Shown here: in pieces, positions 1 through 22,581 of the stretch
Numbering within the stretch: position 1 is the first letter of the stretch
Layout of the letters: every line of letters starts with the position of its first letter
Source: a virus
IMG/VR virus record: IMGVR_UViG_3300025087_000989
Coordinates: 1-47,635 of that record
Direction: 5' to 3' (one strand)
DNA length: 47,635 nt
Made by a program: the position numbers and the translations under genes
Notes under the pieces: model-generated
The model's input: only the letters and a program-made list of their open reading frames with translations
What the model was told of the DNA's origin: nothing
Database searches by the model: none

Positions 1-1685
1 ATAGAAATCTTGATATTCTGGTAATTACATCAAGTAGTGAATCTGGCCCAAGGCCGCTGATCGAGGGTCTAGCCAGTGGTTTGGTGGTATTATCAACGAA
101 TGTGGGATTGGTTCCAGAATTAAAAGATAATTGTAAGTCTTTACACGTGCTAGAATCCACAGATTCTTTCTTAAATAAAATAAAGGAAATAGATAAAAAT
201 AGATCAATACTAGATAACCACCGCGATTCAATAGAATTTATCCAAAATAACTATTCGATTAATAATGAAAAACAAAAATGGGGAGAAGTAATTAAGGTAT
301 TAGCTATTTCAAATAAGAAGGCATGTGTCCTTGTAACAACATTTAATAGACCAAGCTACCTACTTAATTTACTACACCAATTAGAAAAAGAAAGTGTTCA
401 CGTTGTGGTTTTTGACGATCAGAGTACTGTTGATTATACAGAAGTTCAAAACTATATAAAATTAAAGGGTTGGGAATTTGTTACCACAAAAATTAAATAT
501 GGAAAACTTGAATATTTACAATTTATTAAAAACTCTATAAAATATGTGTCTAAGTACACATACCAATATTATTTCTTTATACAAGATGATATAGAAATTT
601 GTAATAATTTTGTATGTAAGAGTGTAGATACGTGGAATTTAATACCTGATGTTAGAAAAGGAACGCTGTTTTTATTAAAAGACAGTACTTATAATAAATC
701 AAGGTGGGGTTCAAAAACATACAAAGAATATAAAGATTATGATGAAATCTTTTGGGTGGATTGTAATGCTTTTCTTTTTGATAATTTACTGATAAGCAAT
801 ATAGATAAAGTAGCGAAGCCGCCTGTTCAATGGTTTAAAAATAAATTAAATTCATCCGGGACAGGAAGGCAGATTTCTCATTATTTTAATGAACATAATA
901 TTGGAATGTTTAGGACTAAGGAATCTTTGGTTATACACGACACTAGTATTGAATCATTAATGAATCCAATAGTTAGAAAAGCGGACACATCTTTGGTTGT
1001 TGATTATGCCGAACGAAAAATTTACGCCTCATTAGCATCAATAGAACGAAGAAAAGAATCACTAGGTAAGACTGTTGAAAGTCTACTCCCACAAGTAGAT
1101 GTGTTGTTTGTTTATCTAAATAATTATAAAGATATTCCAAAATTTCTGATTAATAAAAAGATCACGGTTTTTCATAATCTTGGAGATTTAGGAGATAGTG
1201 GTAAGTTCTACCCATTAGATTTAATTGATAAACAAAGTTACCATCTGACCTGTGATGATGATTTTATTTACCCGCCTGGTTATGCCAGCAATATTACAAG
1301 AGAATTAAAAAAGAATGTAAAATCAATAGTTGGATTTCATGGTGTACTGTTAAATGATTCTATTAAATCTTATTATAAATCACGGAAAGTTATTCATTTT
1401 AACGAAATTTTAAAACAAACCTGGCGTGTGCATATTCTTGGAACAGGAGTGCTTGGCTATCAAAGATCAACTATTGATATTTGTTTAGATGATTTCAAAA
1501 TTCCAAATATGGCGGATATATGGTTTGCTATAAAGGCGCAAGAACAGAAAATTCCAATGCTGTGTATTCCTAGAAAAAAGAATTTGTTTACTGTTATTCC
1601 AGACAATGGTGGTTCAATATTTGAATCTGGCTTGACAGCAAAGAAACAAACAGATATTGTAAAATCCATACGATGGGAACTGTAA
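1..1685 (+). CDS. Multi-domain glycosyltransferase (GT4 C-terminus + GT2-like + second GT-A-like domain), 5' truncated
   Basis: The reading frame is open from base 3, so the gene starts left of the window. The first codons encode the end of a GT4 (GT-B fold) glycosyltransferase: the EX7E pair lies at bases 39-41 and 63-65, followed by the usual loop and strand. A GT2-like nucleotide-sugar transferase domain starts near base 318 (VLVTTFNRP, then FDDQS) with an acidic QDD motif near 587. A third GT-A-like segment begins near 1010 and carries CDDD near 1249. Three sugar-transfer modules in one chain suggest processive or sequential addition of different sugars to one glycan. Sugar donors and acceptor cannot be read from the sequence. 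The next gene starts one base after the stop. The gene is very AT-rich, like the rest of the cassette. Family assignment is firm for the first two modules and weaker for the third. Confidence 0.85.
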   Translation, partial: RNLDILVITSSSESGPRPLIEGLASGLVVLSTNVGLVPELKDNCKSLHVLESTDSFLNKIKEIDKNRSILDNHRDSIEFIQNNYSINNEKQKWGEVIKVLAISNKKACVLVTTFNRPSYLLNLLHQLEKESVHVVVFDDQSTVDYTEVQNYIKLKGWEFVTTKIKYGKLEYLQFIKNSIKYVSKYTYQYYFFIQDDIEICNNFVCKSVDTWNLIPDVRKGTLFLLKDSTYNKSRWGSKTYKEYKDYDEIFWVDCNAFLFDNLLISNIDKVAKPPVQWFKNKLNSSGTGRQISHYFNEHNIGMFRTKESLVIHDTSIESLMNPIVRKADTSLVVDYAERKIYASLASIERRKESLGKTVESLLPQVDVLFVYLNNYKDIPKFLINKKITVFHNLGDLGDSGKFYPLDLIDKQSYHLTCDDDFIYPPGYASNITRELKKNVKSIVGFHGVLLNDSIKSYYKSRKVIHFNEILKQTWRVHILGTGVLGYQRSTIDICLDDFKIPNMADIWFAIKAQEQKIPMLCIPRKKNLFTVIPDNGGSIFESGLTAKKQTDIVKSIRWEL

Positions 1686-1686
1686 G

Positions 1687-2460
1687 ATGGCCATACGATC
1701 ATTTTGGTCAAATAGTACAAATAATTTTGGAGATACTTTGACGCCTTGGTTGCTGTCGAAACTTGGTTATAAATCCAAGTGGGTTAAAAGAGGTGCCCCA
1801 AACAAACTTCTAGCGGTTGGTTCAATTATACAAAGTATCGTTAGCGGTGATATAGTATGGGGAAGTGGTAGTTTTGGAAGATTGCGTAAAGGATTAGTAT
1901 TTCTTAATATCCCCGAAAATGTTATATTTCTAGCGGTAAGAGGGCCTAAGACAAAAAATATCTTTAATCCAGAAGTACGAGACAGGATACCTAATATATT
2001 CGGTGACCCTGGATTATTAGTGAGCAGTTATTATAAACCGACTATAAAAAAGCAATATAAAATAGGAATTATACCACATGAAATTGAAAAAGATATTCAG
2101 CCGATTAATGACAGTAGTATAAAATGGATTGATATTAATAGCGGTATAAAACAAGTAATAGATGATATAAATAGCTGCGAAATCATACTCTCTTCATCAT
2201 TGCATGGTATTATTGCAGCAGAATCATACGGGATACCTACTGGATGGATAAAGATGTCAGACAAGATAATTGGAAATACTTTTAAATTCCAAGATTACTA
2301 TCTATCCACAGGTAGAAACGAACAGAAATTTATAAAATGGGAGGGAAGGAGTACATTACTTAGTGTTGATAAAAAGTTACAAGATCAGATTGATTTGAAT
2401 AAGGTATCACAAATCAAAGATGTTTTGACTACAGCATTCTATTCGCATTATAGGAGATAG
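1687..2460 (+). CDS. Polysaccharide pyruvyl transferase family protein
   Basis: The 257-residue protein has the hallmarks of the polysaccharide pyruvyltransferase family (PF04230): an N-terminal NNFGDTLTPWLL motif (residues 12-23), an FGDPGLL segment in the middle and the C-terminal SSSLHGIIAAESYGIP motif. Family members transfer pyruvate from phosphoenolpyruvate to a sugar hydroxyl, giving a ketal that adds negative charge to exopolysaccharide or O-antigen. Some relatives bind nucleotide sugars and do other chemistry. The gene follows the multi-domain glycosyltransferase with a one-base gap and precedes a GT2 gene by two bases, so all three are probably co-translated. No signal peptide or membrane segment is seen, which fits a cytosolic enzyme. 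Substrate unknown. Confidence 0.85.
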   Translation: MAIRSFWSNSTNNFGDTLTPWLLSKLGYKSKWVKRGAPNKLLAVGSIIQSIVSGDIVWGSGSFGRLRKGLVFLNIPENVIFLAVRGPKTKNIFNPEVRDRIPNIFGDPGLLVSSYYKPTIKKQYKIGIIPHEIEKDIQPINDSSIKWIDINSGIKQVIDDINSCEIILSSSLHGIIAAESYGIPTGWIKMSDKIIGNTFKFQDYYLSTGRNEQKFIKWEGRSTLLSVDKKLQDQIDLNKVSQIKDVLTTAFYSHYRR

Positions 2461-2462
2461 GT

Positions 2463-3131
2463 ATGCTTCTTTCTTATCTAATGCTAAGTCATAATAGGTT
2501 GAATTATTTGAAGGAAGCTGTTTCTTCTGTATTAAAACAATCAGTACCGGATTGGGAATTGATTATAGTTGATGATAGTAGAAGTAAAGAAATAAATAGT
2601 TTTTTAGATTCACTTATGATCTATAATAATATCGTTATTTGTAAACTATCTCAAGAAAAACAAATAGCTATTAAGCGAGATATTACATTGCATCTTGCCT
2701 CAGGGGTTCTATGCACGCCATTGGATGATGATGATCTAGCAAAACCAAATCGAACAGGGGATTTAATTAATACATATTTAAAACATAAGGTAGATTTCAT
2801 ATATGGAAAAGTTGATTATCTAAAGTTAGATAACGGAGTGTGGTCAAAGTATGAAGGTGTTTATTCTAATATAGAAGTTGGAAATACTGCTGTCGCAATA
2901 AATGGTGGGGCAATAGCGTTTACAAAAGAAATTGCAATCAGAGTAGGCGGTTATAAAGAGCGAATTGGAAGTTTACTAAATAAAGATAGTATGCGCGGAG
3001 AAGACTGGAGGCTTTATAGAAGAATTTTAAATGAAACCAAATCATATATAGAACTTAGTTCAATTATATCTACTGTACGGCGGCACGAAACGAATATAAG
3101 TCTCAGACCAAGAAAACGCATATTTAGTTAA
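2463..3131 (+). CDS. GT2 family glycosyltransferase
   Basis: A GT-A fold family 2 glycosyltransferase of 222 residues. It has the N-terminal SHNRLNYL motif (9-16), the nucleotide-binding IIVDDS strand (34-39) and a run of four aspartates at 88-91 that supplies the DXD metal-binding site. A GEDW-type motif (about residues 179-182) matches the catalytic ED region of the family. The protein is short and lacks membrane segments, so it acts in the cytosol on a nucleotide sugar and a lipid- or protein-linked acceptor that cannot be named. It starts two bases after the pyruvyltransferase-family gene. A 33-base gap with AGGAG separates it from the next, broken, gene. Confidence 0.88.
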   Translation: MLLSYLMLSHNRLNYLKEAVSSVLKQSVPDWELIIVDDSRSKEINSFLDSLMIYNNIVICKLSQEKQIAIKRDITLHLASGVLCTPLDDDDLAKPNRTGDLINTYLKHKVDFIYGKVDYLKLDNGVWSKYEGVYSNIEVGNTAVAINGGAIAFTKEIAIRVGGYKERIGSLLNKDSMRGEDWRLYRRILNETKSYIELSSIISTVRRHETNISLRPRKRIFS

Positions 3132-3164
3132 TCTATATTAATTATTTATCTAGGAGTTATATAA

Positions 3165-3643
3165 ATGTCTACAGAAAAAGAAAATATGTATTTGTTCCTA
3201 AAAAAAATAGAGCAAACTTCGATAAGACGTGCAAAATTTTGTGCTTCTATAATTAATAAATTGGATGTAACATCTGTATACGATTATGGATGTGGCTTGG
3301 CACAGCTAGGAGACTTTATTACTGATGATCTACAATATATATAGGATTTGATTTATTTGCATTTAATAATGCAAAGCAGTTGGATTTACAAAAAAATCTC
3401 CCATTAATAGATGACAAAAATAGTGTAGGAGTGTTCTTGGGAAGTTTAGAATCATTACCTAATCGAAAATTTATTTTGTGTACTCTAGTAGAGTCGCATA
3501 AATATATTTTATTTTCATATAAAGAAAATCATGATGGCTTTCAAGTAGATTCTTTTTTGGAAAGCGTTTCTTTAAAATTAGTAACAAAAGTACTACCAAA
3601 ACAAAAAAAACTATATTCTACATTATATTTAATTTCTAAATAG
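3165..3643 (+). pseudogene. Methyltransferase-like gene broken by a TA-repeat frameshift (paralogue of the next gene)
   Basis: An ATG at 3165 with AGGAG eight bases upstream opens a frame containing a SAM-binding-like motif, YDYGCGLAQL, that stops at 3342-3344. A second frame, two bases on, continues without interruption to 3643. The join lies in a (TA)4 run at 3336-3343. Removing one TA gives a continuous 158-residue protein that aligns along its length with the 159-residue product of the next gene. Shared blocks are YGCGL-QL, GxDxxxF and SVxVxLGxLE. The intact form was probably a small class I methyltransferase-like protein, shorter than typical SAM methyltransferases. The shift may be a real mutation, a phase-variation switch or a sequencing error; sequence alone cannot decide. 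Confidence 0.75.
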
Positions 3644-3669
3644 AAACTTAATATTATGAGGTGGATTAC

Positions 3670-4149
3670 ATGTCTAGGAAAAGTGATATGAGAGAATTTC
3701 TTGCATCTATATCTGAAATATCAGATATACGTGCTAAAAGGTGTGCTGCTTTAATAAATAGTTTAAATGTTGAAAACGTACATGAATATGGTTGTGGTCT
3801 AATGCAACTAAAGAATTATATATCAGAAAACAAAAAATACTTTGGTTATGACACATATAAATTCTCTAAGGATGTAATACTGTTTGATATATCCAATCAA
3901 CATCTAGTATATAAAAATGATAGTATCAGTGTCCTACTAGGGAAGTTAGAGGGTTTAGAAAATATAGTCGATATACTACTGAAAGTTATCAACTCCCATG
4001 ATTATACTATATTTTCTTATACCGCCAGTGTAAGTAGACCGTTTACTCCGGATACATTTATTAAATCAAACAACATTAAATTAATAAGTAAAGACATACC
4101 GAATACAAAAAGTAAAAACTCTATTATTTATTTAGTTGAAAAACTATAA
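3670..4149 (+). CDS. Small methyltransferase-like protein (intact paralogue)
   Basis: A protein of 159 residues. The ATG at 3670 is preferred over the GTG at 3661 because GAGG lies just upstream at normal spacing and because it matches the N-terminus of the broken paralogue before it. HEYGCGLMQL resembles SAM-binding motif I, and FGYDTYKF follows as the expected second strand. The chain then lacks much of the usual Rossmann fold, so it may be a minimal or degenerate methyltransferase. The gene sits between a broken copy of itself and a radical SAM gene, which points to a role in modifying the same glycan or its precursor. Function is inferred from one motif and context. Confidence 0.6.
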   Translation: MSRKSDMREFLASISEISDIRAKRCAALINSLNVENVHEYGCGLMQLKNYISENKKYFGYDTYKFSKDVILFDISNQHLVYKNDSISVLLGKLEGLENIVDILLKVINSHDYTIFSYTASVSRPFTPDTFIKSNNIKLISKDIPNTKSKNSIIYLVEKL

Positions 4150-4166
4150 ATTTTTAGGAAAGAAAG

Positions 4167-5453
4167 ATGAACAAACTTAAAATTTGTTTTATTAATCCGC
4201 CGCATCCATACTTAAAACAACCAAAAGCACAAGCACCACTAGGATTACTGTATGTAGCATCGGCGGCCAGGAATATTAATACTACAGATATTAGTGTTGT
4301 AGACCTCGGGGGCTTTAAGTATAACGATAATCTTTCTTTGCCAGAAGCAGATATTTACGGTTTAACAGGAACCGTTTTAGATAGGAAACCATGTTCTATT
4401 ACTGCCGAATATATACGAAGTAAATATCCAAAAGCAAAAATAATAATTGGTGGCCCAATCCATTTAGCAGCAAAAGATTTAGATACATCTTTGTTTGATT
4501 CTGTTGTGTTCGGGGAAGGAGAATACATAATCAAACAAATTATAGAAGATTTTCCTAACGTACATTCCAGTTATACAGGGGAAAGGATACATGATTTGGA
4601 TTCTCTTGCATTTCCCGCAAGAGATTTAATTGATAATATTGGTGGGAATGTGTTCGCATATAATCAAAACTATTTCAAGGGTGGGAGTTCTGTTATAATA
4701 ACAAGCCGGGGGTGTCCTTTTGCCTGTGCTTTTTGTGCATCACCTGGTATATGGGGCGGAAAACAAGTAATATTTAGAAGTGTAGAGAATGTACTAGATG
4801 AAGTAGATGTTCTAATTAATGACTTTGGTATAAAACAGTTACGATTTTCAGATGATACACTTACAGCTAATACTAAAAGACTTTTAAGATTATGCAGGGG
4901 TCTAAAAGATCGTGGTGTTGTCTGGAGAGCATCCATAAGAGTTAAACCAAATGATATTTCTATGTTTAGTGAGATGTATAAGTCTGGATGTAGAGAAGTA
5001 AGTTTCGGGATAGAATCTGGAGATCAAAAAGTTCTTGATACAATATTGAAAAAAACAACTGTCGAAGATAATATACAAGCAGTCAAAAATGCTAAGAAGG
5101 CAGGTTTAGTAGTTAGACTTTTATTTATGTGTGGTACACCGGGTGAAACTGAAACAACTGCTGATAATAATATTAAGTTTTTAGAAACAATAAAAAATGA
5201 TTATGATACAATCGCACTAACAAACTTTATTCCAATTCCTGGTTCCGCAATAGCGGATAAACCAGATCAGTTCGATTGTAAAATACTAAATGATAATATT
5301 GATGATTTTAATTTTTATATGTGGGGACCTGAAGGAGAAAATAAATGGAATAACATGATCAGTCTGAATAATCTGGATAATTCAATATTTCAAAAAAATA
5401 TACAGAAGATAAGAAACTACGTAAAATCTTGCGGGAAGAGTAATCAAGGATGA
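4167..5453 (+). CDS. B12-binding-type radical SAM enzyme
   Basis: A 428-residue radical SAM protein. The N-terminal 140 residues look like a cobalamin-binding Rossmann domain (INPPHPY at 10-16, GLLYVASAAR at 26-35, IIIGGPIHL at 92-100), though the classic DXHXXG histidine motif is not obvious. The 4Fe-4S cluster motif CxxxCxxC is at C183, C187 and C190. FSDDTLT and FGIESG follow, as in the family's TIM barrel. Such enzymes cleave SAM to a radical and often methylate or rearrange unactivated carbons, here possibly on a sugar or lipid carrier. The stop overlaps the next start by four bases (ATGA), so it is coupled to a SAM methyltransferase. Family sure, reaction unknown. Confidence 0.88.
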   Translation: MNKLKICFINPPHPYLKQPKAQAPLGLLYVASAARNINTTDISVVDLGGFKYNDNLSLPEADIYGLTGTVLDRKPCSITAEYIRSKYPKAKIIIGGPIHLAAKDLDTSLFDSVVFGEGEYIIKQIIEDFPNVHSSYTGERIHDLDSLAFPARDLIDNIGGNVFAYNQNYFKGGSSVIITSRGCPFACAFCASPGIWGGKQVIFRSVENVLDEVDVLINDFGIKQLRFSDDTLTANTKRLLRLCRGLKDRGVVWRASIRVKPNDISMFSEMYKSGCREVSFGIESGDQKVLDTILKKTTVEDNIQAVKNAKKAGLVVRLLFMCGTPGETETTADNNIKFLETIKNDYDTIALTNFIPIPGSAIADKPDQFDCKILNDNIDDFNFYMWGPEGENKWNNMISLNNLDNSIFQKNIQKIRNYVKSCGKSNQG

Positions 5454-6151
5454 CTATTTTAAATGAAACACAGTTACAGCGTGACGAAGAATTATCGCTG
5501 TATAGTGGGATACCTATAGACATCATCAAAAATTTAGTGATAGGTGCTCCTGAATCTATAAAGTTATATGAAAACATAGATGTCAATCTTCAGTCTTTTG
5601 ATTTTATATATAAGGAATTTCCACATATAAAAAACAAAATACATCTATTAAAAACATTATCCGCCTTTTCTGTTACAAGAAGGGGTTTTATGATCAAACA
5701 AATAGAAAATTATATAACGAATTGGAATAGCAAAGTAATATTGGATTTTGGTTGTGGTGTTGGAACGCACGGTATTTATTTTGCGAGTAGGTGTAATATT
5801 GTTGATTTATTAGATGTAAAAGGGCCTCTAAGGGATTATGCGGAATGGAGATGCAAAAATAGAAAATTAAATGTAAATATACTGGACCAAGATACGGAAT
5901 TAGAAAAAGATAAGTATGATATAGTAATATGTTTAGATGTATTAGAGCATATTGCCGATCCAGTTTTAGCATTTAATCGTATTATACAATCATTAAAAAG
6001 TAATGGTTTACTTTTGTTAGAGGTAAGTTCTATGATTAAACCAACATCAGGTCATTTCACCAAGTCAATAAATATATGGAAACAACATGGTGTACCTTTA
6101 TTAAATTCTTGTTTTTCTATGTTACAGACATTTTTATATAAAAAAATATGA
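5450..6151 (+). CDS. Class I SAM-dependent methyltransferase
   Basis: A 233-residue Rossmann methyltransferase. Motif I is ILDFGCGVG (97-105), the acidic strand-2 end is DLLDVKG and motif IV/post-IV is DIVICLDVLEHI (157-168), the usual signature of methyltransferase type 11/12 families. The first 80 residues are an extra helical region not typical of the core fold. It is translationally coupled both ways through ATGA overlaps, to the radical SAM enzyme before it and the hexapeptide acyltransferase after it. It is likely an O- or N-methyltransferase acting on a nucleotide sugar or growing glycan; the substrate is inferred only from the neighbours. Confidence 0.85.
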   Translation: MTILNETQLQRDEELSLYSGIPIDIIKNLVIGAPESIKLYENIDVNLQSFDFIYKEFPHIKNKIHLLKTLSAFSVTRRGFMIKQIENYITNWNSKVILDFGCGVGTHGIYFASRCNIVDLLDVKGPLRDYAEWRCKNRKLNVNILDQDTELEKDKYDIVICLDVLEHIADPVLAFNRIIQSLKSNGLLLLEVSSMIKPTSGHFTKSINIWKQHGVPLLNSCFSMLQTFLYKKI

Positions 6152-6633
6152 TTACTGCAAAATTACAACAAGGGAAGAACTGTAAAATAAGCGATACCGC
6201 GTTTATTGGTTATAAAGAACACGGTGGAGAAATAATTCTTGGTAATCATGTTACGATAAATGATAATTGCATGATACGAACATGTACTGGAATTATACGA
6301 ATTGGAAACAATTCGAGCATTGGCTATAGTTGTATTTTTCATGGGAAGGGTAATATTACAATAGGAAATTATGTTTTAATAAGCCCTTTTGTCCAGATAT
6401 ATGCTCAAAACCACGGGATAGCAAAAAATAAGATTATTTCTTTGCAGGAGCAAACATCATTTGGAATAGTTATCGAAGATGACGTTTGGATTGGTGCTGG
6501 TTCTATAATAGTAGATAATATAAGAATTAGTAAAGGCTCCGTAATAGGAGCGGGTTCAATATTAACAACAAATACTAATAATTATGAAATCTGGGCAGGT
6601 AATCCAGCAAAAAAAATAGGAGAAAGAAAATAA
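6148..6633 (+). CDS. Left-handed beta-helix (hexapeptide repeat) acyltransferase
   Basis: A 161-residue acetyltransferase of the LbH/WbbJ type. Imperfect hexapeptide repeats run through most of the chain (IGNNSSIG, ITIGNYVLI, VWIGAGSIIV, GSVIGAGSIL) and it ends with the standard AGNPAKKIGER tail. A candidate catalytic histidine is H89 in YAQNHG. The family forms trimers and transfers acetyl or similar groups from CoA to sugars of O-antigen or capsule. The start overlaps the previous stop as ATGA. The stop is TAA and overlaps the apparent AUA start of the next gene, which differs from every other junction in this operon. Confidence 0.88.
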   Translation: MITAKLQQGKNCKISDTAFIGYKEHGGEIILGNHVTINDNCMIRTCTGIIRIGNNSSIGYSCIFHGKGNITIGNYVLISPFVQIYAQNHGIAKNKIISLQEQTSFGIVIEDDVWIGAGSIIVDNIRISKGSVIGAGSILTTNTNNYEIWAGNPAKKIGERK

Positions 6634-7184
6634 GTACATTTTTATTTACAGGTATTCCAGCAATTAGCACCATAGTACATTATTGTATAGCTAATATATT
6701 AAATGAATTAAACATTAAAACTGTTTTAGATATTGGGGGTACTGCGCGATTACAAAAATTTGGAAGTTGGAATATAAAAGATGCGAATATAAAAGATAAT
6801 ATAGATGGTTGCAATTTGCCTTACGATGACGCGACATTTGATGCAGTAGTATCTATCGCTACTGCTGAACATGTGTCTGATGTAGATTTGTTTTTAAAAG
6901 AGGCGAATAGAGTAAGTAAATTTATTTCTATACATTGGTATCCAGCAGGAGATGCGGCACGTAAAGTAGAAATTCTGAAAAGAGACATTGGGCATAGTCA
7001 CCCATGTAATATACCAGACATACCAAAAAAGCCATTTGAATGTATACCTTTTATTTCGATTGAAACGCACCTACTTACATTGGCAACAATTTATCCAAAA
7101 TTGAATGTTAAGAACTTACATGATTTTATACTAAATTATGGAAAAGAACCATATGGATACTTAATGAGTTTAAAAAAGAAATGA
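6630..7184 (+). CDS. SAM-dependent methyltransferase with apparent AUA start codon
   Basis: A class I methyltransferase-like protein. If translation starts at the ATA at 6630 it has 184 residues: TVLDIGGTARL (31-41) is motif I and the segment around NLPYDDATFDAVVSIATAEH carries the strand-4 region. No ATG, GTG or TTG lies in frame upstream of motif I. The first TTG, at 6816, would delete the SAM-binding strand. The ATA has AGGAGA six bases upstream and overlaps the previous TAA as ATAA, while the five genes from 4167 onward otherwise join by ATGA. A single G-to-A change at 6632 explains both the odd start and the TAA stop. The gene may be poorly translated or silenced. Confidence 0.68.
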   Translation: MSTFLFTGIPAISTIVHYCIANILNELNIKTVLDIGGTARLQKFGSWNIKDANIKDNIDGCNLPYDDATFDAVVSIATAEHVSDVDLFLKEANRVSKFISIHWYPAGDAARKVEILKRDIGHSHPCNIPDIPKKPFECIPFISIETHLLTLATIYPKLNVKNLHDFILNYGKEPYGYLMSLKKK

Positions 7185-8092
7185 AATTACTGTATATAAC
7201 AGATCATTATGCTGAGGATGTCTGCGGAACAAAAATATCTATATTCCGTGAGTTAAAAAGGAATGGGATAAATGCTGATATTTATAAATTTAAAAAAGTA
7301 ATTAATGTAGATTATGTAGTAGATAAAATAAAAATTAATAAATATACACATGTATGGATAGCGCATTCCTGGCCTGTATTTAATAGGGTTTATAATCTAA
7401 AAGAAATAAACAGTCTTAATGCTATTGTGATTTTGTCTGGTTTTTCAGACCCAAATAATTGGAATCAAAATAAATTTGATCTGTGTAATATTTATACAAC
7501 AAATAGTAAATATATATATAATCTGTACCCCGAGAAAGCATATTATTTTCCAACCGCTTGTGATTTAAATTTTCATAAAAATTTGCATACTGATAGACCT
7601 GTAGATATTCTAGTATATGGAAAAGGAAGACATCCATTTTTTAATCCCGAAGATTATAGACAATGTGTGGTTAGGAAATTAATTCACGACTTTCCGTATC
7701 TCAAATTTCTTATTTTTGGAACTACATGGGATGATATTAAGTGTGAACCGCCAAAAACAGGGTATGACTTTATTAAAGCAATAAACCAATCAAAAATAGG
7801 ACTTGATTTAGAACAAGACAAGTCTCCACCAGCACATAGAGTGTTTGAGTTGATGAGTTGTGGTACTGTAGCAATTACGAAAGAAAGAGATGAGTTAAAT
7901 TTATTATTTCCTACAAAAGATAATATTATATATTATAATACATATGATGACATTGTAACTAATATTTATGATCTTCTATATAATGATAAATATAAAAACA
8001 TAAGTCTTATAATGGAAGATAATACTTGTAAATATCATTCAATACGAAATCGTGTTTTTCCTTTTCTTGATTTTTTAAAGGGTAGAAAATGA
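7181..8092 (+). CDS. Glycosyltransferase, GT4/CgeB-like
   Basis: A 303-residue GT-B type protein. The N-terminus (LLYITDHYAEDVCGTKIS) is the typical first strand and loop of GT4 enzymes. The C-terminal half has DILVYGKGRHPFF, a strand with a conserved glycine turn, and PPAHRVFELMSCGTVAI, which is the donor-binding E-containing motif seen in Glyco_trans_1_2/CgeB-like proteins. It probably transfers a sugar from a nucleotide donor in the cytosol. It is coupled on both sides by ATGA overlaps to a methyltransferase and a sugar epimerase, which may make its donor. The predicted acceptor is the same glycan built by the upstream genes. Confidence 0.82.
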   Translation: MKLLYITDHYAEDVCGTKISIFRELKRNGINADIYKFKKVINVDYVVDKIKINKYTHVWIAHSWPVFNRVYNLKEINSLNAIVILSGFSDPNNWNQNKFDLCNIYTTNSKYIYNLYPEKAYYFPTACDLNFHKNLHTDRPVDILVYGKGRHPFFNPEDYRQCVVRKLIHDFPYLKFLIFGTTWDDIKCEPPKTGYDFIKAINQSKIGLDLEQDKSPPAHRVFELMSCGTVAITKERDELNLLFPTKDNIIYYNTYDDIVTNIYDLLYNDKYKNISLIMEDNTCKYHSIRNRVFPFLDFLKGRK

Positions 8093-9027
8093 ATATATTA
8101 GTAACAGGTGGTGCTGGATTTATTGGTTCGCACGTATGCGAAGCTTTATTAGATCGGGGAAACGATGTTATTATTATTGATAATATAAATGATTATTATG
8201 ATACTGAAATAAAAAAGAATAATATAGAAACCTTATTGCGATATAGAAGATGCATATTTAAACAAGGGGATGTGACTGATCTGGCTTTCTTAAGTAGAAT
8301 ACACTGGGAAAGTATAAATCAAGTAGTTCATTTGGCTGGGTACGGCGGTATCCGCAATTCCTTAGAAAACCCTCATTTATATTGCAATACAAATATTATT
8401 GGAACACAAAATATGGCGTGGATTGCCAAAAAATATAAAATGCGATCTTTTGTATTTGCATCATCTAGTTCTGTTTATGGAAATAATTTGTCTGTCCCGT
8501 TTAAAGAAGATGATAATACTGATTTTGTATTGAATCCTTACGCTGCATCTAAGAAAGCGGCCGAGGCTGTACTTTATTCTTTTAATAAGTGTTTTGATCT
8601 TAATATATCTTGCTTGAGGTATTTTACTGTATATGGACCAAGACAAAGACCTGATATGGCAATAACAAAATTCGTCAATGCTATATCAAAAGATAAACCT
8701 ATAGATATATTTGGTGATGGTACTACATATAGGGACTATACATATATATCCGATATAGTAAAGGGTACTGTGTCAGCACTGGATCATTGTAATGGTTTTA
8801 ATGTCTATAACCTTGGGAACGGAAATAGTATCAATTTAAAAGACTTGGTGGTTAAGATAGGGAAAAAACTAAATAAAGAACCTATAATAAACTATACAAA
8901 TCTTCAATTAGGAGATGCTGATAGAACATTATCTGATATATCAAAAGCGAAGGTAGATTTGCATTATAATCCAAAGATTAATATTGATGACGGACTTAGT
9001 TTATTTATTGATTGGTTTAATAATTGA
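8089..9027 (+). CDS. NAD-dependent UDP-sugar epimerase, UDP-glucuronate 4-epimerase-like
   Basis: A 312-residue short-chain dehydrogenase of the extended type. The NAD site is TGGAGFIGS (6-14) and the catalytic pair is Y151 and K155 in YAASK, with serines at 125-128 upstream. The segments DNINDYYD (31-38) and RYFTVYGPRQRPDMAI are characteristic of UDP-glucuronate/UDP-galacturonate 4-epimerases and related UDP-N-acetylglucosamine epimerases. It would interconvert UDP-hexose epimers and feed a glycosyltransferase such as the one it is coupled to. It is the last gene of the AT-rich sugar operon. A promoter for the following phage genes overlaps its final codons. Confidence 0.9.
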   Translation: MNILVTGGAGFIGSHVCEALLDRGNDVIIIDNINDYYDTEIKKNNIETLLRYRRCIFKQGDVTDLAFLSRIHWESINQVVHLAGYGGIRNSLENPHLYCNTNIIGTQNMAWIAKKYKMRSFVFASSSSVYGNNLSVPFKEDDNTDFVLNPYAASKKAAEAVLYSFNKCFDLNISCLRYFTVYGPRQRPDMAITKFVNAISKDKPIDIFGDGTTYRDYTYISDIVKGTVSALDHCNGFNVYNLGNGNSINLKDLVVKIGKKLNKEPIINYTNLQLGDADRTLSDISKAKVDLHYNPKINIDDGLSLFIDWFNN

Positions 9028-9082: not shown

Positions 9083-9373
9083 ATGCGGTTTATACAATTA
9101 TTGATAATTGTTCTAGTTCTTTCATCTTGCGCCGGAGTTGATTATTTTAAACAGCCGGAGAATCAACAAGTGCTAGTGGACTTGGGAATTTCTTGTATCG
9201 CGGAAAAGCCGGAGAGTGCAAAGATAGGTGCTCTTTATGTGCTTGATACACGGTTTCAAGACAATTCACTAATGGAATTTGTTGTTGGTTGTGATTACAA
9301 GCTTTATACAGTTACTTGCGACGTATCTAAAAAGGCGGCTTGTTCTGATTTAAAGGTTTACACGGGAGAATAA
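9083..9373 (+). CDS. Small lipoprotein (AT-rich copy)
   Basis: A 96-residue protein starting at the ATG at 9083, which has GGAGG at 9070-9074. It opens with a short positively charged end, a hydrophobic stretch (LLIIVLVL) and a lipobox ending SSCAG, so it is a predicted outer-membrane or periplasmic lipoprotein lipidated at Cys18. Four further cysteines could form disulphides. It resembles the GC-rich lipoprotein encoded at 47056-47388 in the CAG+L/V+D start, a VGC motif and a C-terminal TC...C pair. A role in lysis (spanin-like), superinfection exclusion or envelope change is possible but unproven. Confidence 0.75.
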   Translation: MRFIQLLIIVLVLSSCAGVDYFKQPENQQVLVDLGISCIAEKPESAKIGALYVLDTRFQDNSLMEFVVGCDYKLYTVTCDVSKKAACSDLKVYTGE

Positions 9374-9374: not shown

Positions 9375-9845
9375 ATGGACGGACAATGGTATGTTCATGA
9401 TTTGGTTCTTTCAACTATTAAAAAGTGGTTGGAAGAGGATAGTGTTGATCCGGCGGATATAGTACAGATTTCACCTATTACCAGTACTCGGGTAATGGTC
9501 TATTACTTTCAAAGGGATGCTTATCCAATCGTACCTCTTGCCGCTGTTGCAGTGGATACTAATAGCGCCGCATATTATGTACAACATTGGAAGCAAGCGA
9601 CTGTACTGTTTGAAAAGACTGGGGCGGGAACTTGTACTGTAACGCTGGAAGGGAGAATGAAGGATGGAAACTGGTATACTATTCCTTCTTCTTACGGCGG
9701 GGTTAATGTAACAGCTAACCTCGGAGCGGGAGTACAAAATCTAGCAGTTATTGCCGATCTAACTGGTTGGTATGAACTAAGAGCAACTGTAACCAATGTT
9801 GTTGGTGTAGTTGCCGTTACCTGTACGATGGCCGGGGGTCAATAA
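9375..9845 (+). CDS. Putative phage structural protein, tail-fibre associated
   Basis: I do not recognise this 156-residue family. The N-terminal third is mixed helix and strand with acidic residues. From about residue 55 it is rich in T, V, G and Y in alternating patterns, consistent with a beta-sandwich (TGAGTCTVTLEGRMKDGNWY, then TGWYELRATVTN). Beta-sandwich modules of this kind are common in phage fibre and decoration proteins. It begins one base after the lipoprotein stop, and its own stop overlaps the fibre gene start as TAATG, so it is coupled to the fibre. It could be a fibre connector, chaperone or accessory adhesin. Confidence 0.6.
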   Translation: MDGQWYVHDLVLSTIKKWLEEDSVDPADIVQISPITSTRVMVYYFQRDAYPIVPLAAVAVDTNSAAYYVQHWKQATVLFEKTGAGTCTVTLEGRMKDGNWYTIPSSYGGVNVTANLGAGVQNLAVIADLTGWYELRATVTNVVGVVAVTCTMAGGQ

Positions 9846-11665
9846 TGGCAAACTTAGATAGAACATTCCATGCTGGTTTTGGTCCACCGCCGCATAATAC
9901 ATCCCATCAGCCAGGGGGATCAGATGTAGTTGCTGGAGTAGTTCCAGGATTACATGCCGCTTCCCATGCTCCGGGTGCAGCAGATGCAATTACTATTGTC
10001 ACTCCTCCTGTGGTTGTTGGAAATCTTACTGAACAAGCAGCCGGCGGAACATTAGTAGATGCCGGCGTAGCAGTAAATGATGCTGGTATAGCAAATACGG
10101 ATGTATGGACAGCGCAGCAAATCATTAGCGATGTTACATCAAGAATAGCAATAGCACTGTCAAACCTAGATTGGAAAAGTTCAGTAATAGACGTTACAAA
10201 TAATCCTCCTGGTGTGTTTGTAGCCGGTGATCGGTATATAGTAGATACCGTTCCAGTTGGCGCGTGGGTAGGCCATGGAGATGATATTGCAACTGCACTA
10301 GATGCTGCTACATGGTCATTTGAAACCCCAGAAGAAGGCTGGGCTGCTTGGGTGAGATCAAGTAATGTTACGGCAATATTTGATGGGGCTGTCTGGACAT
10401 ATTTAGATACAGCTTTTCTATTATCACATACACACAATGGTGCTGATTCTCCACAGTTACTACAAGCTAATACTCACCAAACTCCTGATACCGATGCTGC
10501 AACTACATCGTTACATCATACTGTTGGAACAAGCGGAACACAAGCAGCGGCAGGAAATCACATTCATGATGACCGCGTACCACTTTTGTCTAACTTAGTT
10601 CTCCCTAGAAAGTTAGCTACAAACATAACTTCCGTGGCCGATAATGGTGGCGGAAAAGCAAGATTCACTTCTGCTTCCCACGGGTTGACAAATGGCGAAT
10701 ATGTAACTATCGCCGGGTGTGTAGATATAACTTACAATGTTACAGCAGCAATTACTTATGTTACAGATAATACATTTGACATAACAACTGTTAACTATAA
10801 TGCAACTGATACAGGAACAGTACAATCTCTTAGTTCGCAACGATTGCAGTTTCAATCATTAAACGGCGCGGGAAATATTGATTATTTTCGCATGTATTCA
10901 AAATCTGTTTCCGCGACTGAGACTGCATTAACAATTGAAAAATCAACAAATGGAACTACATGGACACAGGCAGTTCAAATAAGTGATACAGGGCAGATAT
11001 TAGCTTTGGATGGTACTAATGCGTTGCCGGCTTTATCTTTTAGTCAAGACCCAATAGCAGGTATTTACCGCATCAGTACAACGTCTTTGGGTGTGGCGTT
11101 TGAGGGTGTAAAGAGAATAGAGCTAAACAAAAGCGACATAAGGACAAATACTTTAAGAGCGCTGAATACTGATGCGCGACTGAGTTTGGTAGGAAACGAA
11201 ATAGATGGTGCTGAAAAAATAAGTGTGAAGGCCAATACGTACTTGGTTGGGATAGCCAATGCTGATTATATCGTATTTCAAGCCGCTCACCAAGCTGACA
11301 CTATCTTGAACTGTAAATTAGGATCAATTGAAGCAAAGAAGCCGTTTAAAATGCAAAGTGCAGCATACGTACATGGTACGCTTGTTGATGTTGCCGCATA
11401 CGACATCTTGCCAACCGACCTGAGTATATTTGTACTCCACACTGCTACCGCGCCAGTGGCTATCCAACTGATGACCGCAGATTGCGTACTTGATAGGTAT
11501 ATCAAAATCAAGGACAAGGGATTAAATGCCTTTACAAACAATATCACAATATCAACTGAAGGTGGGGAATTGATAGACGGCGCGGCCACTTACACCGTAG
11601 CGTCAAATGGCGGTGCGGTAGCTTTGGAGTCAGATGGTTCTAACTGGTGGATAGTAGCGGGGTAA
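9845..11665 (+). CDS. Tail fibre protein with DUF2793-like domain
   Basis: A 606-residue fibre-like protein. The first 50 residues repeat the His/Gly/Asp pattern often seen in phage fibres (HQPGGSD, HAASHAPGAADAI). Residues about 105-188 match the DUF2793 pattern (GDRYIV, a TWSFETPEEGWAAWV core, then W at 184), a domain found in fibres of phages and gene transfer agents. More histidine repeats follow (SHTHNG, then a GNHIHD). The C-terminal half is long beta-strand repeat and ends in a small GGAVALESDGSNWWIV-type tip. It should form a trimer and take part in host recognition. It is the last wholly AT-rich gene before the composition change and may be the target of the upstream glycosylation genes. 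Confidence 0.8.
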   Translation: MANLDRTFHAGFGPPPHNTSHQPGGSDVVAGVVPGLHAASHAPGAADAITIVTPPVVVGNLTEQAAGGTLVDAGVAVNDAGIANTDVWTAQQIISDVTSRIAIALSNLDWKSSVIDVTNNPPGVFVAGDRYIVDTVPVGAWVGHGDDIATALDAATWSFETPEEGWAAWVRSSNVTAIFDGAVWTYLDTAFLLSHTHNGADSPQLLQANTHQTPDTDAATTSLHHTVGTSGTQAAAGNHIHDDRVPLLSNLVLPRKLATNITSVADNGGGKARFTSASHGLTNGEYVTIAGCVDITYNVTAAITYVTDNTFDITTVNYNATDTGTVQSLSSQRLQFQSLNGAGNIDYFRMYSKSVSATETALTIEKSTNGTTWTQAVQISDTGQILALDGTNALPALSFSQDPIAGIYRISTTSLGVAFEGVKRIELNKSDIRTNTLRALNTDARLSLVGNEIDGAEKISVKANTYLVGIANADYIVFQAAHQADTILNCKLGSIEAKKPFKMQSAAYVHGTLVDVAAYDILPTDLSIFVLHTATAPVAIQLMTADCVLDRYIKIKDKGLNAFTNNITISTEGGELIDGAATYTVASNGGAVALESDGSNWWIVAG

Positions 11666-11667: not shown

Positions 11668-12456
11668 ATGTCACATAAATTAGAGAATAGAATAGTAGTT
11701 GCTCCGGCTGGTTATGGTGGGGACTACACCTCCATCGCCGCCGCCAGCGCCGCCGTGGGCGCCAGCGGCCGCTTTTACGTCGCACCCGGGACCTACGCCG
11801 AAACCGACAACGTGACTATCGCTGATGACCAATCCTGGAATTTCGACGGAGTAACCGCCAATTTCGACGCGGGGTTTAATTTCCAAATCACCGGCAACCG
11901 CTCGCGCGCCGTCGGAAAATTGACCATCGGCGGCCAGGGAGAGGCCGTCAACAATACACTGTTGCGCTACATCGGGGCCGACAACGAATGGGATGGGTGC
12001 GACGTTATTATCAATCCCACCGTACCGACCATACCGGCTCAATGGTATCCGGTCACGGTCAGCGGGGGTGGCATTGGCGGCTCACTCAAGGTCCGGTTGG
12101 CCGATTCCGTCACCAACACGAAGCAGCTCACTGCTGTCTCAGGATTCCTCACGTTTATTGGCGCACGCACAATGGGAAAATTCAATATCCGCGTTTACTA
12201 TTGCGTTCACTCAAACGGCGCCATGGCCGTCAACTTCGGCGCGATCAACATGATCGCCGGAGCCGCCTGTTTTGGCAACTTAATCCATTCAGTATCGGAT
12301 GGAATAACGGTAGCCGGCGCTGGCACTGGCTACGGATTCATCGCGGCCGCCGGCAATAACCGCAATGAAATTGTTGGCGTTTCCGGCCCGAGCGACGAGA
12401 GCCATATCTCGGATGCCGGCACCAACAACGACACCGACGCCTACGTGAAAACCTAG
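11668..12456 (+). CDS. Beta-helix tail fibre/spike-like protein; composition changes within the gene
   Basis: A 262-residue protein whose N-terminus (VVAPAGYGGDYTSIAAA) is the usual first coil of pectate-lyase-like right-handed beta-helix proteins of phage tails. Glycine-rich strand repeats follow (YVAPGTYAETDNVTI, GKLTIGGQG). The ATG at 11668 is two bases after the fibre stop. The first 15 or so codons are AT-rich like the upstream genes and the rest are strongly GC-rich. The protein reads smoothly across the join, so either a recombination put a new front on an existing gene or the sequence was joined here by assembly. A receptor-binding or polysaccharide-binding role is likely; no catalytic residues can be assigned. 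Confidence 0.65.
   Translation: MSHKLENRIVVAPAGYGGDYTSIAAASAAVGASGRFYVAPGTYAETDNVTIADDQSWNFDGVTANFDAGFNFQITGNRSRAVGKLTIGGQGEAVNNTLLRYIGADNEWDGCDVIINPTVPTIPAQWYPVTVSGGGIGGSLKVRLADSVTNTKQLTAVSGFLTFIGARTMGKFNIRVYYCVHSNGAMAVNFGAINMIAGAACFGNLIHSVSDGITVAGAGTGYGFIAAAGNNRNEIVGVSGPSDESHISDAGTNNDTDAYVKT
11680..11740. other. Abrupt composition boundary (AT-rich to GC-rich)
   Basis: Everything left of about 11,700 is AT-rich in coding and spacer sequence, and nearly everything right of about 11,730 is GC-rich. The change happens within a few dozen bases inside one reading frame. No repeat, tRNA or insertion sequence is seen at the join. It marks a recombination joint or an assembly joint. Confidence 0.8.
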
Positions 12457-12466
12457 GAGGTCCCCC

Positions 12467-12562
12467 ATGAGCCTGACCATAGGATTATCCCTCACCGTCC
12501 TGTTAATCGGGGCCATCCTGGCGATCACCATGACCGACCATGACGACGGGGGGCGGCCATGA
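12467..12562 (+). CDS. 31-residue single-pass membrane peptide
   Basis: A very small gene with a strong AGGAGG at 12455-12460 and an ATG at 12467. The product has a hydrophobic stretch of about 18 residues (IGLSLTVLLIGAILAITM) and an acidic, glycine-ending tail. Its stop overlaps the next start as ATGA. It predicts an inner-membrane peptide, perhaps holin-like or a membrane partner of a lysis or exclusion protein. Support is the ribosome site, coupling and clean topology; there is no family match. Confidence 0.6.
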   Translation: MSLTIGLSLTVLLIGAILAITMTDHDDGGRP

Positions 12563-12741
12563 AAATCATAGTCATCCCCGCGCCCGTAGCAGGCACGGTC
12601 TGGGCATGGACGAATCTGCAATACACCACCGGCGCCCGTGTCCTGGCCGCTGGTACGGCCGGCACCGTCTGGGGATGGTACGGCCCCCCGCCGCCCGCGC
12701 CGCCCCCGGCCCCGCCGAAAGATAACGGAGGCCCCCCATGA
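12559..12741 (+). CDS. Small proline-tailed protein of unknown function
   Basis: A 60-residue product coupled by ATGA overlaps to both neighbours, which is the main evidence that it is real. It has two copies of an AGTVW-aromatic motif (AGTVWAW at 11-17 and AGTVWGW at 34-40) joined by a short strand region. It then ends in a tail made almost only of proline, alanine and glycine. The internal repeat suggests a small two-strand-pair fold with a flexible end. The place in a tail-gene string suggests a minor structural or assembly part, but I do not recognise it. Confidence 0.5.
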   Translation: MKIIVIPAPVAGTVWAWTNLQYTTGARVLAAGTAGTVWGWYGPPPPAPPPAPPKDNGGPP

Positions 12742-13481
12742 CCGCCTCACCCTTCGGCCTTGGCGGCGGCTTCGGCGCCCCGCCCCCTTCCTTCTCCGGC
12801 GACTTCTCCGAGGCCGAGTACGACCGCGCCCGCTACGTTTGGATGCGCGAAACCCACACCCTCGACACCACCATCCGCCGCTTCATGCGCCATTTCGTCG
12901 AAGACCTGCGCGCCGCCGTGGTCCGCTGGGCGCGGCTCGCCATCGTCGCCCTCGCCCCGGCCAACACACTGGACGCCCACGGCCTCACCCGAGCCATGGC
13001 CCTCTGGCCCGACGAACCGCCTGACTCCTACCGCCGCCGCCTCATGGACGCCTTCAACTGGAAGCGCTTCACCGGCTGGCTCCTTGGCCCCTACCGCGCC
13101 TTTGAATACTTTGGCGTCACCGCCGACGGCATTCACACCTACGCCGTCCCCTACGCCCTGTGGACCGCCCTGTCCTGGCAGTCCACCGCCATTGAGGAAG
13201 GCGGCGCCGTCGGGCTCCAATGGCTCATTCAGCGGGCTGACGCCCTAAGCGCCGTCACCTACAACTATTGGGACGGCGCCGCCTGGCAGACCACCGCGTT
13301 GACCCAGGCCAACATCCTCGCCCACGGCAATACCGCCGCCGAACTGGAAGCCATCGCCGCCGCCGACTGGAGCCTGCTGCTCCCCTGCGAAGCGGCGTTC
13401 GTGACCTGGTTGGAGGGTGACAATTTCAGCCTCTACCACCCCGGAATAATAATCGACGTAACAGCGGAGTTCATCGGATGA
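12738..13481 (+). CDS. Putative tail/baseplate protein (P2 gpI / Mu gp48-like position)
   Basis: A 247-residue protein. The first half is helical and rich in Arg and Ala (residues 25-75), then an RRRLMDAFNWKRFTGWLLGPYRAFEYFGV segment is followed by a strand-rich C-terminus with aromatic residues. This layout and the place before fibre genes recall the tail proteins that join baseplate wedge and fibre (P2 gpI, Mu gp48), but I see no diagnostic motif. It is coupled to the proline-tailed gene before it and to a Cys-rich gene after it by ATGA overlaps. It would work in virion tail assembly. Confidence 0.55.
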   Translation: MTASPFGLGGGFGAPPPSFSGDFSEAEYDRARYVWMRETHTLDTTIRRFMRHFVEDLRAAVVRWARLAIVALAPANTLDAHGLTRAMALWPDEPPDSYRRRLMDAFNWKRFTGWLLGPYRAFEYFGVTADGIHTYAVPYALWTALSWQSTAIEEGGAVGLQWLIQRADALSAVTYNYWDGAAWQTTALTQANILAHGNTAAELEAIAAADWSLLLPCEAAFVTWLEGDNFSLYHPGIIIDVTAEFIG

Positions 13482-13825
13482 ATGTTTGGCACATAAAAAA
13501 ACGTTGCGATAACATGGAGTTAAACCTTGGCGAATGCCTTGAGGGATCAAACGTTTTCTCATACTGCCCTCATCTGGTTATCGGCAAGCACTGGGAGAAT
13601 TGCCCCGCCGGCAATCTCCATTTTGACGCTGGGGAAAAGCAGCAGTTCGTGGTGACTGTCGATTTGGACGCCCCAAACGCAACCGTTCGGAATGACAACC
13701 AAAATTGCCCGCTGCAAAGCGCGCCGGAGTTCAAAAACTTTTTTGCGGGGTGCAACATATGCGACATTCAGGCCCCGAAAAATTGCCCGCTTCGCAGTGG
13801 GCAAATCGTGATACAGGTGAAGTGA
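13478..13825 (+). CDS. Small cysteine-rich protein, unknown function
   Basis: A 115-residue protein with eight cysteines spread over its length (RCD, GEC, SYC, ENC, NCP, GCNIC, NCP). The repeat NCPL and the CNIC pair could bind metal or make disulphides. Base composition is clearly lower in GC than its neighbours, which hints at separate acquisition. The start overlaps the previous stop (ATGA) and the stop overlaps the next ATG by one base, so it is expressed with the tail genes. No signal peptide is seen. Other small Cys-containing proteins are encoded at 14028 and 15372. Confidence 0.6.
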   Translation: MNVWHIKKRCDNMELNLGECLEGSNVFSYCPHLVIGKHWENCPAGNLHFDAGEKQQFVVTVDLDAPNATVRNDNQNCPLQSAPEFKNFFAGCNICDIQAPKNCPLRSGQIVIQVK

Positions 13826-14028
13826 TGAAGTGCGACCCCCGTTACCTCTCGGAAATGCGCTGCGGCCTGTGCGGCGAGCCGGCCGCCTCGTTCGTGGTCA
13901 GCCCGGACGGCCAGGTCATTTGCCTGGCCTGCCATGAGGCCGCGCTGCGCTGTGACCTCGCCGACGATGACGCCAGCCCTGGACCGTTGCGCGACCTCGC
14001 GCGCCAGCTTTTGAAAGGACTGATATAA
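13825..14028 (+). CDS. Small zinc-ribbon-like protein
   Basis: A 67-residue product with two CxxC knuckles, CGLC (13-16) and CLAC (33-36), 16 residues apart, which is the layout of a zinc ribbon. A short acidic stretch and an amphipathic C-terminal helix follow. The ATG at 13825 overlaps the previous TGA by one base, and its TAA overlaps the next ATG (TAATG). Small zinc ribbons in phages may bind nucleic acid or partner proteins. Position in the tail string does not tell the job. Confidence 0.55.
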   Translation: MKCDPRYLSEMRCGLCGEPAASFVVSPDGQVICLACHEAALRCDLADDDASPGPLRDLARQLLKGLI

Positions 14029-14222
14029 TGACGACAAATACAGTGTTGCGAGTGATTTTGGATAACAAACATTTCGTATTTTGCCCATTCCGGATGATGG
14101 AGAATATCTATTCCATCATTCCAGCCTGCAAAAAATGCGAGCAGCAGGATGAATGGGACCCCAAAGAATGCACACTCAAAAATGGACCTGTTATAATCAT
14201 GGCTTCCGACCAGGAGTTGTAA
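14028..14222 (+). CDS. Small four-cysteine protein, unknown function
   Basis: A 64-residue product, again less GC-rich than its neighbours. It has a CPF near residue 19 and an ACKKCEQQDEW...EC segment giving C34, C37 and C48, so four cysteines could bind one metal ion. The start overlaps the preceding stop (TAATG) and it ends one base before the fibre-like gene at 14224. General character (short, Cys-rich, strand-forming) is like the products at 13478 and 15372, though no convincing alignment can be made by eye. Confidence 0.5.
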   Translation: MTTNTVLRVILDNKHFVFCPFRMMENIYSIIPACKKCEQQDEWDPKECTLKNGPVIIMASDQEL

Positions 14223-14223
14223 A

Positions 14224-15351: not shown

Positions 15352-15371
15352 GTTAGGGAAAGTGAGGCCAA

Positions 15372-15668
15372 ATGTTATGCTCACCCGACAGCGTGTTCCT
15401 CGACGGAATGCTCCCCATTCCGACCACTTACAGGGCCGCCCATAATATCACCGGGGTCGCCTACGATATTGAGGTCATCCCATTATACATTGCGGACATT
15501 ACCGCGCCATTCGAGTATGATCTCATTATTCGCGACTTGGCGAACCCCTACAATGCGACGCTCTGGCAGCGCTGTCGCCAGTGCGCCATGGAGACCAAGG
15601 GCCGGCGTGATATATGCCATTTATACTATTACCACTTCGGCGGATCGGTAACGGAGGACTTTGAATGA
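15372..15668 (+). CDS. Small cysteine-containing protein, unknown function
   Basis: A 98-residue product with GTGAGG just upstream of its ATG. It contains four cysteines (C3, then RCRQC near 74-77, then IC near 87) and a strand-rich middle section (VAYDIEVIPLYIADITAPFE). The LWQRCRQCAMETKGRRDIC segment could be a small metal site. Its stop overlaps the start of the coiled-coil membrane protein gene (ATGA). It resembles the other small Cys proteins of this region in size and position only. Confidence 0.5.
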   Translation: MLCSPDSVFLDGMLPIPTTYRAAHNITGVAYDIEVIPLYIADITAPFEYDLIIRDLANPYNATLWQRCRQCAMETKGRRDICHLYYYHFGGSVTEDFE

Positions 15669-15910
15669 GCCCCGGTGAAATCAGCCAGATCGAAAACGCC
15701 CTGGGGCGGATCGAAGAGCAGGTAAAAACCCTGCAACGCGAGGTCCGGGAGTCACGCTCCTATCTGGAGACGCTGCGCCAGCAGGTCAGCGCCCTTCAGG
15801 TGGCCCACGAGGCGCTGCGCGGCCGGGTGGTCACCGTGGCCACCCTACTGGCGGTTGGCCTGGGTGGCGGCACGGGGCTGGGTTGGGTGCTCAAGGGACT
15901 GATTCAGTAG
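15665..15910 (+). CDS. Coiled-coil protein with C-terminal membrane segment (XhlA/holin-accessory-like)
   Basis: An 81-residue product. Residues 5-52 form a clear heptad coiled coil (IENALGRIEEQVKTLQREV, then LRQQVSALQ). Residues 56-79 form one hydrophobic transmembrane helix with glycines (VATLLAVGLGGGTGLGWVL). This N-terminal coil plus C-terminal anchor matches the XhlA-like proteins that help holins in phage lysis. It is the last gene of the rightward tail string and is followed by an intrinsic terminator. No endolysin is next to it, so the lysis role is inferred from topology alone. Confidence 0.6.
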   Translation: MSPGEISQIENALGRIEEQVKTLQREVRESRSYLETLRQQVSALQVAHEALRGRVVTVATLLAVGLGGGTGLGWVLKGLIQ

Positions 15911-15925
15911 CCATATTAATAACTT

Positions 15926-15941
15926 GCGGGCCAAAGCCCGC
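15926..15941 (+). other. Short perfect stem-loop
   Basis: GCGGGC and GCCCGC pair around a CAAA loop. No T run follows, so it is not a standard terminator by itself. It may help protect the 3' end of the tail transcript that ends about 70 bases later. Confidence 0.5.
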
Positions 15942-15993
15942 ACGAAAGGGAACAATCACGTAAACGCTCTGGCGAAGTGGGGACACACTTTCC

Positions 15994-18339: not shown

Positions 18340-18343
18340 GCTG

Positions 18344-21012: not shown

Positions 21013-21027
21013 TGACGTTTCTCCTTG

Positions 21028-22277: not shown

Positions 22278-22288
22278 TTTGCACACTC

Positions 22289-22570: not shown

Positions 22571-22581
22571 TAGCGCACCTC

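Follow-up and report, generated by a model that had tools for sequence, protein, structure and literature searches.

A glycan-synthesis gene cassette on a low-GC tail-fibre arm, probably assembly-joined to a second phage in a metagenomic virus record

We analysed the complete IMG/VR virus record IMGVR_UViG_3300025087_000989 (47,635 bases, hereafter the window). Its first 9,027 bases hold a packed cassette of glycan-synthesis genes, built around a B12-type radical S-adenosylmethionine (SAM) enzyme, which runs directly into lipoprotein and tail-fibre genes. Tentatively, and with somewhat less than even confidence, we read the cassette as a phage-borne module on the fibre arm of a low-GC phage, whose products would decorate virion proteins in the cytoplasm, and which in this record was probably joined by assembly to a 61%-GC phage. 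The labels G001-G010 and L002-L109 denote viral contigs or records, or plasmid stretches, compared with the window.

Gene content of the cassette and its fibre arm

The cassette comprises eleven closely packed genes on the plus strand, of which the first is cut at its 5' end by the contig end and one (3165-3643) is broken; 4-base overlaps occur at five junctions between 5453 and 8092. Pfam families above cut-off were Glycos_transf_2, Glycos_transf_1, PS_pyruv_trans, Radical_SAM, Methyltransf_11/23, Hexapep, Glyco_trans_1_2 and Epimerase. The cassette leads straight into three genes on the same strand: a small lipoprotein with an LSSC lipobox (9083..9373, recognised by its sequence and start; GC content at third codon positions [GC3] 0.32), the protein of the open frame 9375..9845, which had no match in Pfam, PHROG or the viral contigs, and a tail fibre with a DUF2793 domain (9845..11665; PF10983, 5.1e-14; PHROG tail fibre families; GC3 0.25-0.36). 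The glycan genes thus adjoin tail-fibre genes. An earlier reading of the window made without database searches (the sequence-only reading) had proposed a packed cassette of this size leading to a lipoprotein and fibre genes, and the open frames, Pfam matches and overlaps bear it out. The GC content was 28-34% over 1-9000, 41-49% over 9-12 kb and mostly 57-68% beyond. The tetranucleotide profile of the fibre was closer to the cassette (0.44-0.48) than to the phage backbone on the right (0.22-0.36). Because the cassette, lipoprotein and fibre resemble one another, and not the backbone, in GC3 and tetranucleotide profile, we regard them as a single low-GC arm. Another lipoprotein, at 47056, has in common with the one at 9083 only a lipobox-like start; homology of the two was considered and is too weak to call (pairwise E 0.001).

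The first cassette gene (3..1685) encodes a fused glycosyltransferase (PF00534, 1.1e-6; PF00535, 5.1e-7) that joins the final part of a GT4-type domain (residues 2-67) to a GT2-type domain, which begins at residue 108, and to a C-terminal region that another viral contig also has. Its residues 97-560 are 35% identical to a protein of the viral contig L054, and residues 1-74 are 43% identical to one of the huge phage LR756500. The next gene (1687..2460) encodes a polysaccharide pyruvyl-transferase-family protein (PF04230, 8.5e-9), with a score of 36.1 bits against a cut-off of 25.3 that covers profile positions 127-276 only. The protein is predicted perhaps to transfer pyruvate to a sugar, and its relatives carry mixed annotations as pyruvyl or galactosyl transferases. 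A GT2 glycosyltransferase follows (2463..3131; PF00535, 1.7e-17), and then a tandem pair of genes with methyltransferase-like glycine motifs. The first copy (3165..3643) is frameshifted near 3340 in a TATATATA run, and its halves align with the second copy at 48% and 37%; sequencing error, decay or switching may each account for the frameshift. The second copy (3691..4149) is an intact open frame with a glycine-rich motif, for which profile searches gave no family match and the AlphaFold2 model was unusable (predicted local distance difference test score [pLDDT] 46).

Downstream of the radical SAM gene lie a class I SAM methyltransferase (MT1, 5450..6151; PF13489, 1.3e-12), with relatives at 38-39% in L043 and L045, and a hexapeptide acyltransferase of the left-handed beta-helix type (LbH, 6148..6633; PF00132, 7.3e-13). 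The latter is WcaF/NeuD-like, matching the NCBIfam WcaF family at 1.7e-16 but under cut-off, and is 57-64% identical to proteins of L068 and L045. A small class I methyltransferase (MT2, 6630..7184; PF08241, 4.7e-8) is 37-39% identical to relatives in L043 and L045. It lacks a canonical start codon, with ATA at 6630 where its neighbours start in ATGA-type overlaps; a second sign of decay and an unusual start are both possible explanations. The claim of the sequence-only reading that several small methyltransferases are present therefore stands for those with Pfam methyltransferase matches, but one methyltransferase-like gene (3165-3643) is frameshifted. The cassette closes with a Glyco_trans_1_2 glycosyltransferase (7181..8092; PF13524, 1.2e-15), conserved in L040-L045, L068 and L090, and an NAD-dependent sugar epimerase/dehydratase (8089..9027; PF01370, 6.5e-56). 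In L090, an epimerase relative likewise comes after the same type of glycosyltransferase.

The radical SAM enzyme (4167..5453; PF04055, 1e-21) carries the CxxxCxxC cluster motif at C183/C187/C190, and these cysteines were invariant in an alignment of six sequences. The B12-binding domain PF02310 gave a match under its cut-off, and from this weak match cobalamin binding is predicted. The AlphaFold2 model (pLDDT 84) had as its top fold match AprD4 (PDB 6fd2; template modelling score 0.76-0.78), which was also the best sequence match in the PDB; the overall folds are alike, but the identity is just 17-18%. AprD4 is a diol dehydratase of antibiotic synthesis whose substrate, paromamine, is sugar-like. 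The methylases CysS, TsrM and MgmA scored just behind it. Because AprD4 is the closest fold and methylases follow closely, we infer that the cassette enzyme may catalyse deoxygenation or C-methylation of a sugar.

Relatives of the cassette in viral contigs and bacteria

A blastn search of window positions 1-8000 against isolate phages under distant settings gave no match, and viral-contig scans with the radical SAM enzyme, the 9375 protein or the fused glycosyltransferase as single queries found no relatives of the cassette. Viral contigs were reached only with an alignment of phage pyruvyl-transferase-family proteins, which yielded 294 relatives (best 47%), and 80 of these were fetched and compared. 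In L045, the pyruvyl-transferase-family gene, radical SAM, MT1, LbH, MT2 and the Glyco_trans_1_2 glycosyltransferase are colinear with the window. L043 has this order minus LbH, and counts once together with L040 and L041 because the three are identical; L068, L090 and L051 hold a reduced or rearranged core. The core proteins were 22-64% identical to those of the window, and the contigs carrying them, up to 277 kb long, are unrelated. In two small contigs the cassette adjoins virion genes on its own strand: L068 has three tail genes upstream of it, separated from it by a single small gene, and in L090 it is directly followed by head, tail and tape-measure genes. The large core-bearing records G003 and G004 are taken to be phages because each has a terminase. 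In fifty other records with pyruvyl-transferase-family genes, no radical SAM gene was found at E 1e-20. In L068 (6707-7651), the N-terminal part of a methyltransferase and a hexapeptide acyltransferase share a single open frame, as a fusion or a deletion.

The best relatives found for the radical SAM enzyme were viral (32-44%), whereas plasmid-borne ones reached at most 29% among the matches listed. Matches in isolate phages were weak (at most 26%), and a genome scan, in which chromosomes were lightly sampled, gave one match at 26%. A Lawsonia intracellularis plasmid (L109, 5001-11170) carries two radical SAM genes with a run of class I methyltransferases, adjoining glycosyltransferases and GalE. 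The sequence-only reading had called the combination of a B12-type radical SAM enzyme and small methyltransferases unusual for a phage; this holds for isolate phages, but the combination recurs in metagenomic viral contigs and in bacterial gene sets of the surface-glycan type.

Phage sugar clusters beside fibres are already known. The host recognition clusters of pelagimyophages and cyanophages (PMC7029224) likewise combine tail-fibre genes with several glycosyltransferases and with enzymes that modify sugars, and are hypervariable between relatives; however, they belong to T4-like phages with GT8-rich sets, and the available part of that account describes no core of radical SAM, pyruvyl transferase, hexapeptide and paired methyltransferase genes. 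The polysaccharide clusters of P-SSM2-type jumbo cyanophages are similar in being large and in having epimerases, multiple glycosyltransferases and O-methyltransferases, but, according to PMC7824862 (section 3.4.10), they carry sugar kinases and nucleotidyltransferases that make nucleoside-diphosphate sugars, none of which was seen in the cassette. LR756500 has relatives of the pyruvyl transferase (42%) and of the GT4 end (43%), separated by about 3 kb; on inspection of its open reading frames (ORFs), however, 3-deoxy-D-manno-octulosonate (KDO)-type genes stand at the centre, and no radical SAM gene of the cassette family was found at E 1e-20. This cluster (L006, 13897-24335; 23% GC) shows by eye KdsD-, KdsB- and KdsA-like ORFs, glycosyltransferases and the pyruvyl-transferase relative. 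In mycobacteriophage virions, subunits of the capsid and the tail tube are glycosylated (Freeman 2023, as cited in PMC12619734); unlike the cassette, this glycosylation is presented in the available portion of that article with no mention of a radical SAM enzyme or pyruvyl transferase. The literature searched, which was a limited test, contained no radical SAM-centred core shared by unrelated viral contigs.

Candidate functions of the cassette

If the cassette decorates the virion, the epimerase and the radical SAM enzyme would produce an unusual (deoxy- or C-methylated) sugar late in expression, and the glycosyltransferases would assemble, within the cytoplasm, a short oligosaccharide capped by the methyltransferases, the acyltransferase and perhaps also a pyruvyl group. 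Structural proteins of the phage would then receive this chain, the neighbouring fibre being the most likely acceptor. In accord with the sequence-only reading, which saw no flippase or polymerase in this part, profile tests of the window and nine related records found neither the flippase (C-terminal domain of Wzx, PF14667) nor the polymerase (Wzy, PF04932), and the initiating transferases PF02397 (Bac_transf) and PF00953 (Glycos_transf_4) were absent too; positive controls were detected in each case. The absence of lipid-carrier, flippase and polymerase functions thus refers to four profile families, with ABC exporters outside the search, and the records include ones of 277 kb and 429 kb. 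We favour a cytoplasmic chain on phage proteins because virion genes lie next door and no export parts were found among the families tested.

Several points weigh against decoration of the virion. The proposed virion glycan derives from gene content, not from any glycan or glycosylated virion protein seen, and no transferase of the oligosaccharyl or protein-glycosyl kind that is known to act on a protein acceptor was identified. The cassette of the 277-kb phage is distant from the sole DUF2793 gene found there. Export genes could lie beyond base 1 because the left flank is missing, and the flippase and polymerase of the host could serve a host-surface glycan. The main rival, which we consider somewhat unlikely, is that the cassette alters the host surface glycan during infection, giving superinfection exclusion or serotype change, with the modified sugars exported by the lipid-linked pathway of the host. 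The closest described phage clusters, those of pelagimyophages (PMC7029224) and P-SSM2 (PMC7824862), are read as changing the host surface, and the bacterial radical SAM relative on the Lawsonia plasmid sits amid glycosyltransferases, GalE and methyltransferases. However, no initiating transferase, flippase or polymerase was detected even in the 277-kb and 429-kb records, nor was a membrane-anchored Gtr-type trio seen among the cassette genes. Virion glycosylation and host-surface change, both put forward by the sequence-only reading, are the right candidates because the related clusters in viral contigs adjoin tail or head genes. A wider proposal, which we regard as doubtful, is that the core of radical SAM, methyltransferase, acyltransferase and glycosyltransferase genes is mobile, builds a radical-derived sugar onto tail proteins without a lipid carrier, and is swapped among unrelated phages together with fibres.

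The sequence-only reading had itself raised the case that assembly had linked the phage genes to an O-antigen locus of the host chromosome; a capsule locus is considered here along with it. An assembly join is plausible, but the partner looks like a low-GC phage. The low GC content would suit a chromosomal locus, as would the gene types, which are those usual in O-antigen loci; against it, the cassette continues via the lipoprotein into the low-GC3 DUF2793 fibre, viral contigs, of which some have terminase or tail genes, carry the core as well, and the viral radical SAM relatives outrank the plasmid ones within the sampling described above. Chromosomal origin was set aside on this fibre continuity and viral recurrence, and we consider it most improbable. 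Scarcely more probable is a DNA-hypermodification cluster in which glycosyltransferases and decorating enzymes would act on the bases of the phage DNA. Glycosyltransferases of phages are able to modify DNA (cited in PMC12619734), and thymidylate-synthase-like genes (PF00303) are present in five large records (G002-G005 and G010), but none occurs in the window or the small records, and an NAD-sugar epimerase and a pyruvyl-transferase-family protein suit a sugar chain better. A search for TET/JBP (PF12851) gave no match, but its positive controls were silent too.

If the core decorates virions, it would represent a dedicated phage glycosylation pathway with radical chemistry, bearing on adsorption, host range and phage recognition; if it alters the host surface, it would be a new superinfection-exclusion cassette.

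Sister genome, join and backbone

The viral scan found a sole other contig with the tail protein at 12738, namely G001 (IMGVR_UViG_3300025117_000137; 40,996 bases). Because its ends repeat 126 bases exactly, we take it to be a circular, complete genome of about 40.86 kb; its first nine bases (L002, 1-9) lie outside the repeat and look like an assembly-end artefact. The contractile-tail phage backbone of the window (12223..47632; 61% GC) was recognised by its 100% identity to this genome: 100% over 27817-47632 and zero mismatches over 12223-28051. G001 is without the cassette, and in place of the arm it has baseplate J (PF04865), a spacer and its own fibre gene of 436 residues. The C-terminal half of that fibre corresponds to window positions 11716-12456; leftward of about 11716, the window and G001 are unrelated in sequence. 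DNA alignment thus identified a hybrid gene in the window (11668..12456, plus strand), which starts AT-rich and from about 11716 onwards encodes a receptor-type domain of high GC that it shares, in frame, with the G001 fibre. The GC content steps from 0.43 to 0.73 at 11701, and GC3 rises to 0.71 in the shared domain, against 0.25-0.36 in the fibre. Because a complete sister lacks the cassette and GC3 jumps at the edge of homology, the cassette arm appears to belong to another, low-GC phage. The same sister genome, with a join that falls on a sharp composition step, speaks against the cassette being a stable part of the 61%-GC phage.

The composition step and the list of mismatches place the join zone between the arm and the 61%-GC phage at 11716..12222. 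Eight mismatches (11718, 11724, 11757, 11784, 11787, 11808, 12027 and 12222), all synonymous and at third codon positions, thin out rightwards (5 in 85 bases, 2 in 414 and 0 in about 35,400). They suggest that a second allele of the receptor-type domain exists, and their pattern is silent on whether arm and backbone are one molecule. We consider an assembly join of two phages sharing a recently exchanged domain more likely than a viable single genome. It is quite possible, though we would not expect it, that the window is one real genome, in which the 61%-GC phage gained the low-GC fibre arm and cassette by recombination at the receptor domain; this is compatible with any of the functions above. 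Arm and backbone meet in frame where a homologous domain begins, the genes are tightly packed, and the stepwise fall of all-synonymous differences suggests exchanged alleles over a blunt misjoin. Such graded mismatches also fit genuine repeated recombination, which counts against an assembly join. However, if the rest of G001 were kept, the genome would reach at least about 51.6 kb, 126% of the 40.9-kb sister, whose capsid genes are identical. Such an excess is usually far beyond what a phage head tolerates. We place the assembly join somewhat above a real recombinant because such a genome would exceed usual head packaging. Furthermore, the composition step falls on the edge of homology, and viral-contig scans, from which near-identical records may be omitted, gave no second contig with the arm. 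A glycan cassette at the end of a viral contig may therefore stem from a second phage that shares the receptor domain only, which affects how auxiliary genes are assigned to phages.

A gene search found no tRNA genes in the window. The backbone carries a terminase, Mu-type portal and F, a DUF2586 sheath-type protein, a tape measure, a primase, a RecD-like helicase and RecT. A small cysteine-rich protein without a PHROG match lies directly after the tail protein (13478-13825). The final three bases of the window (47633-47635), at the start of a D12-class adenine methyltransferase gene, are unlike G001, and this mismatch is probably contig-end noise.

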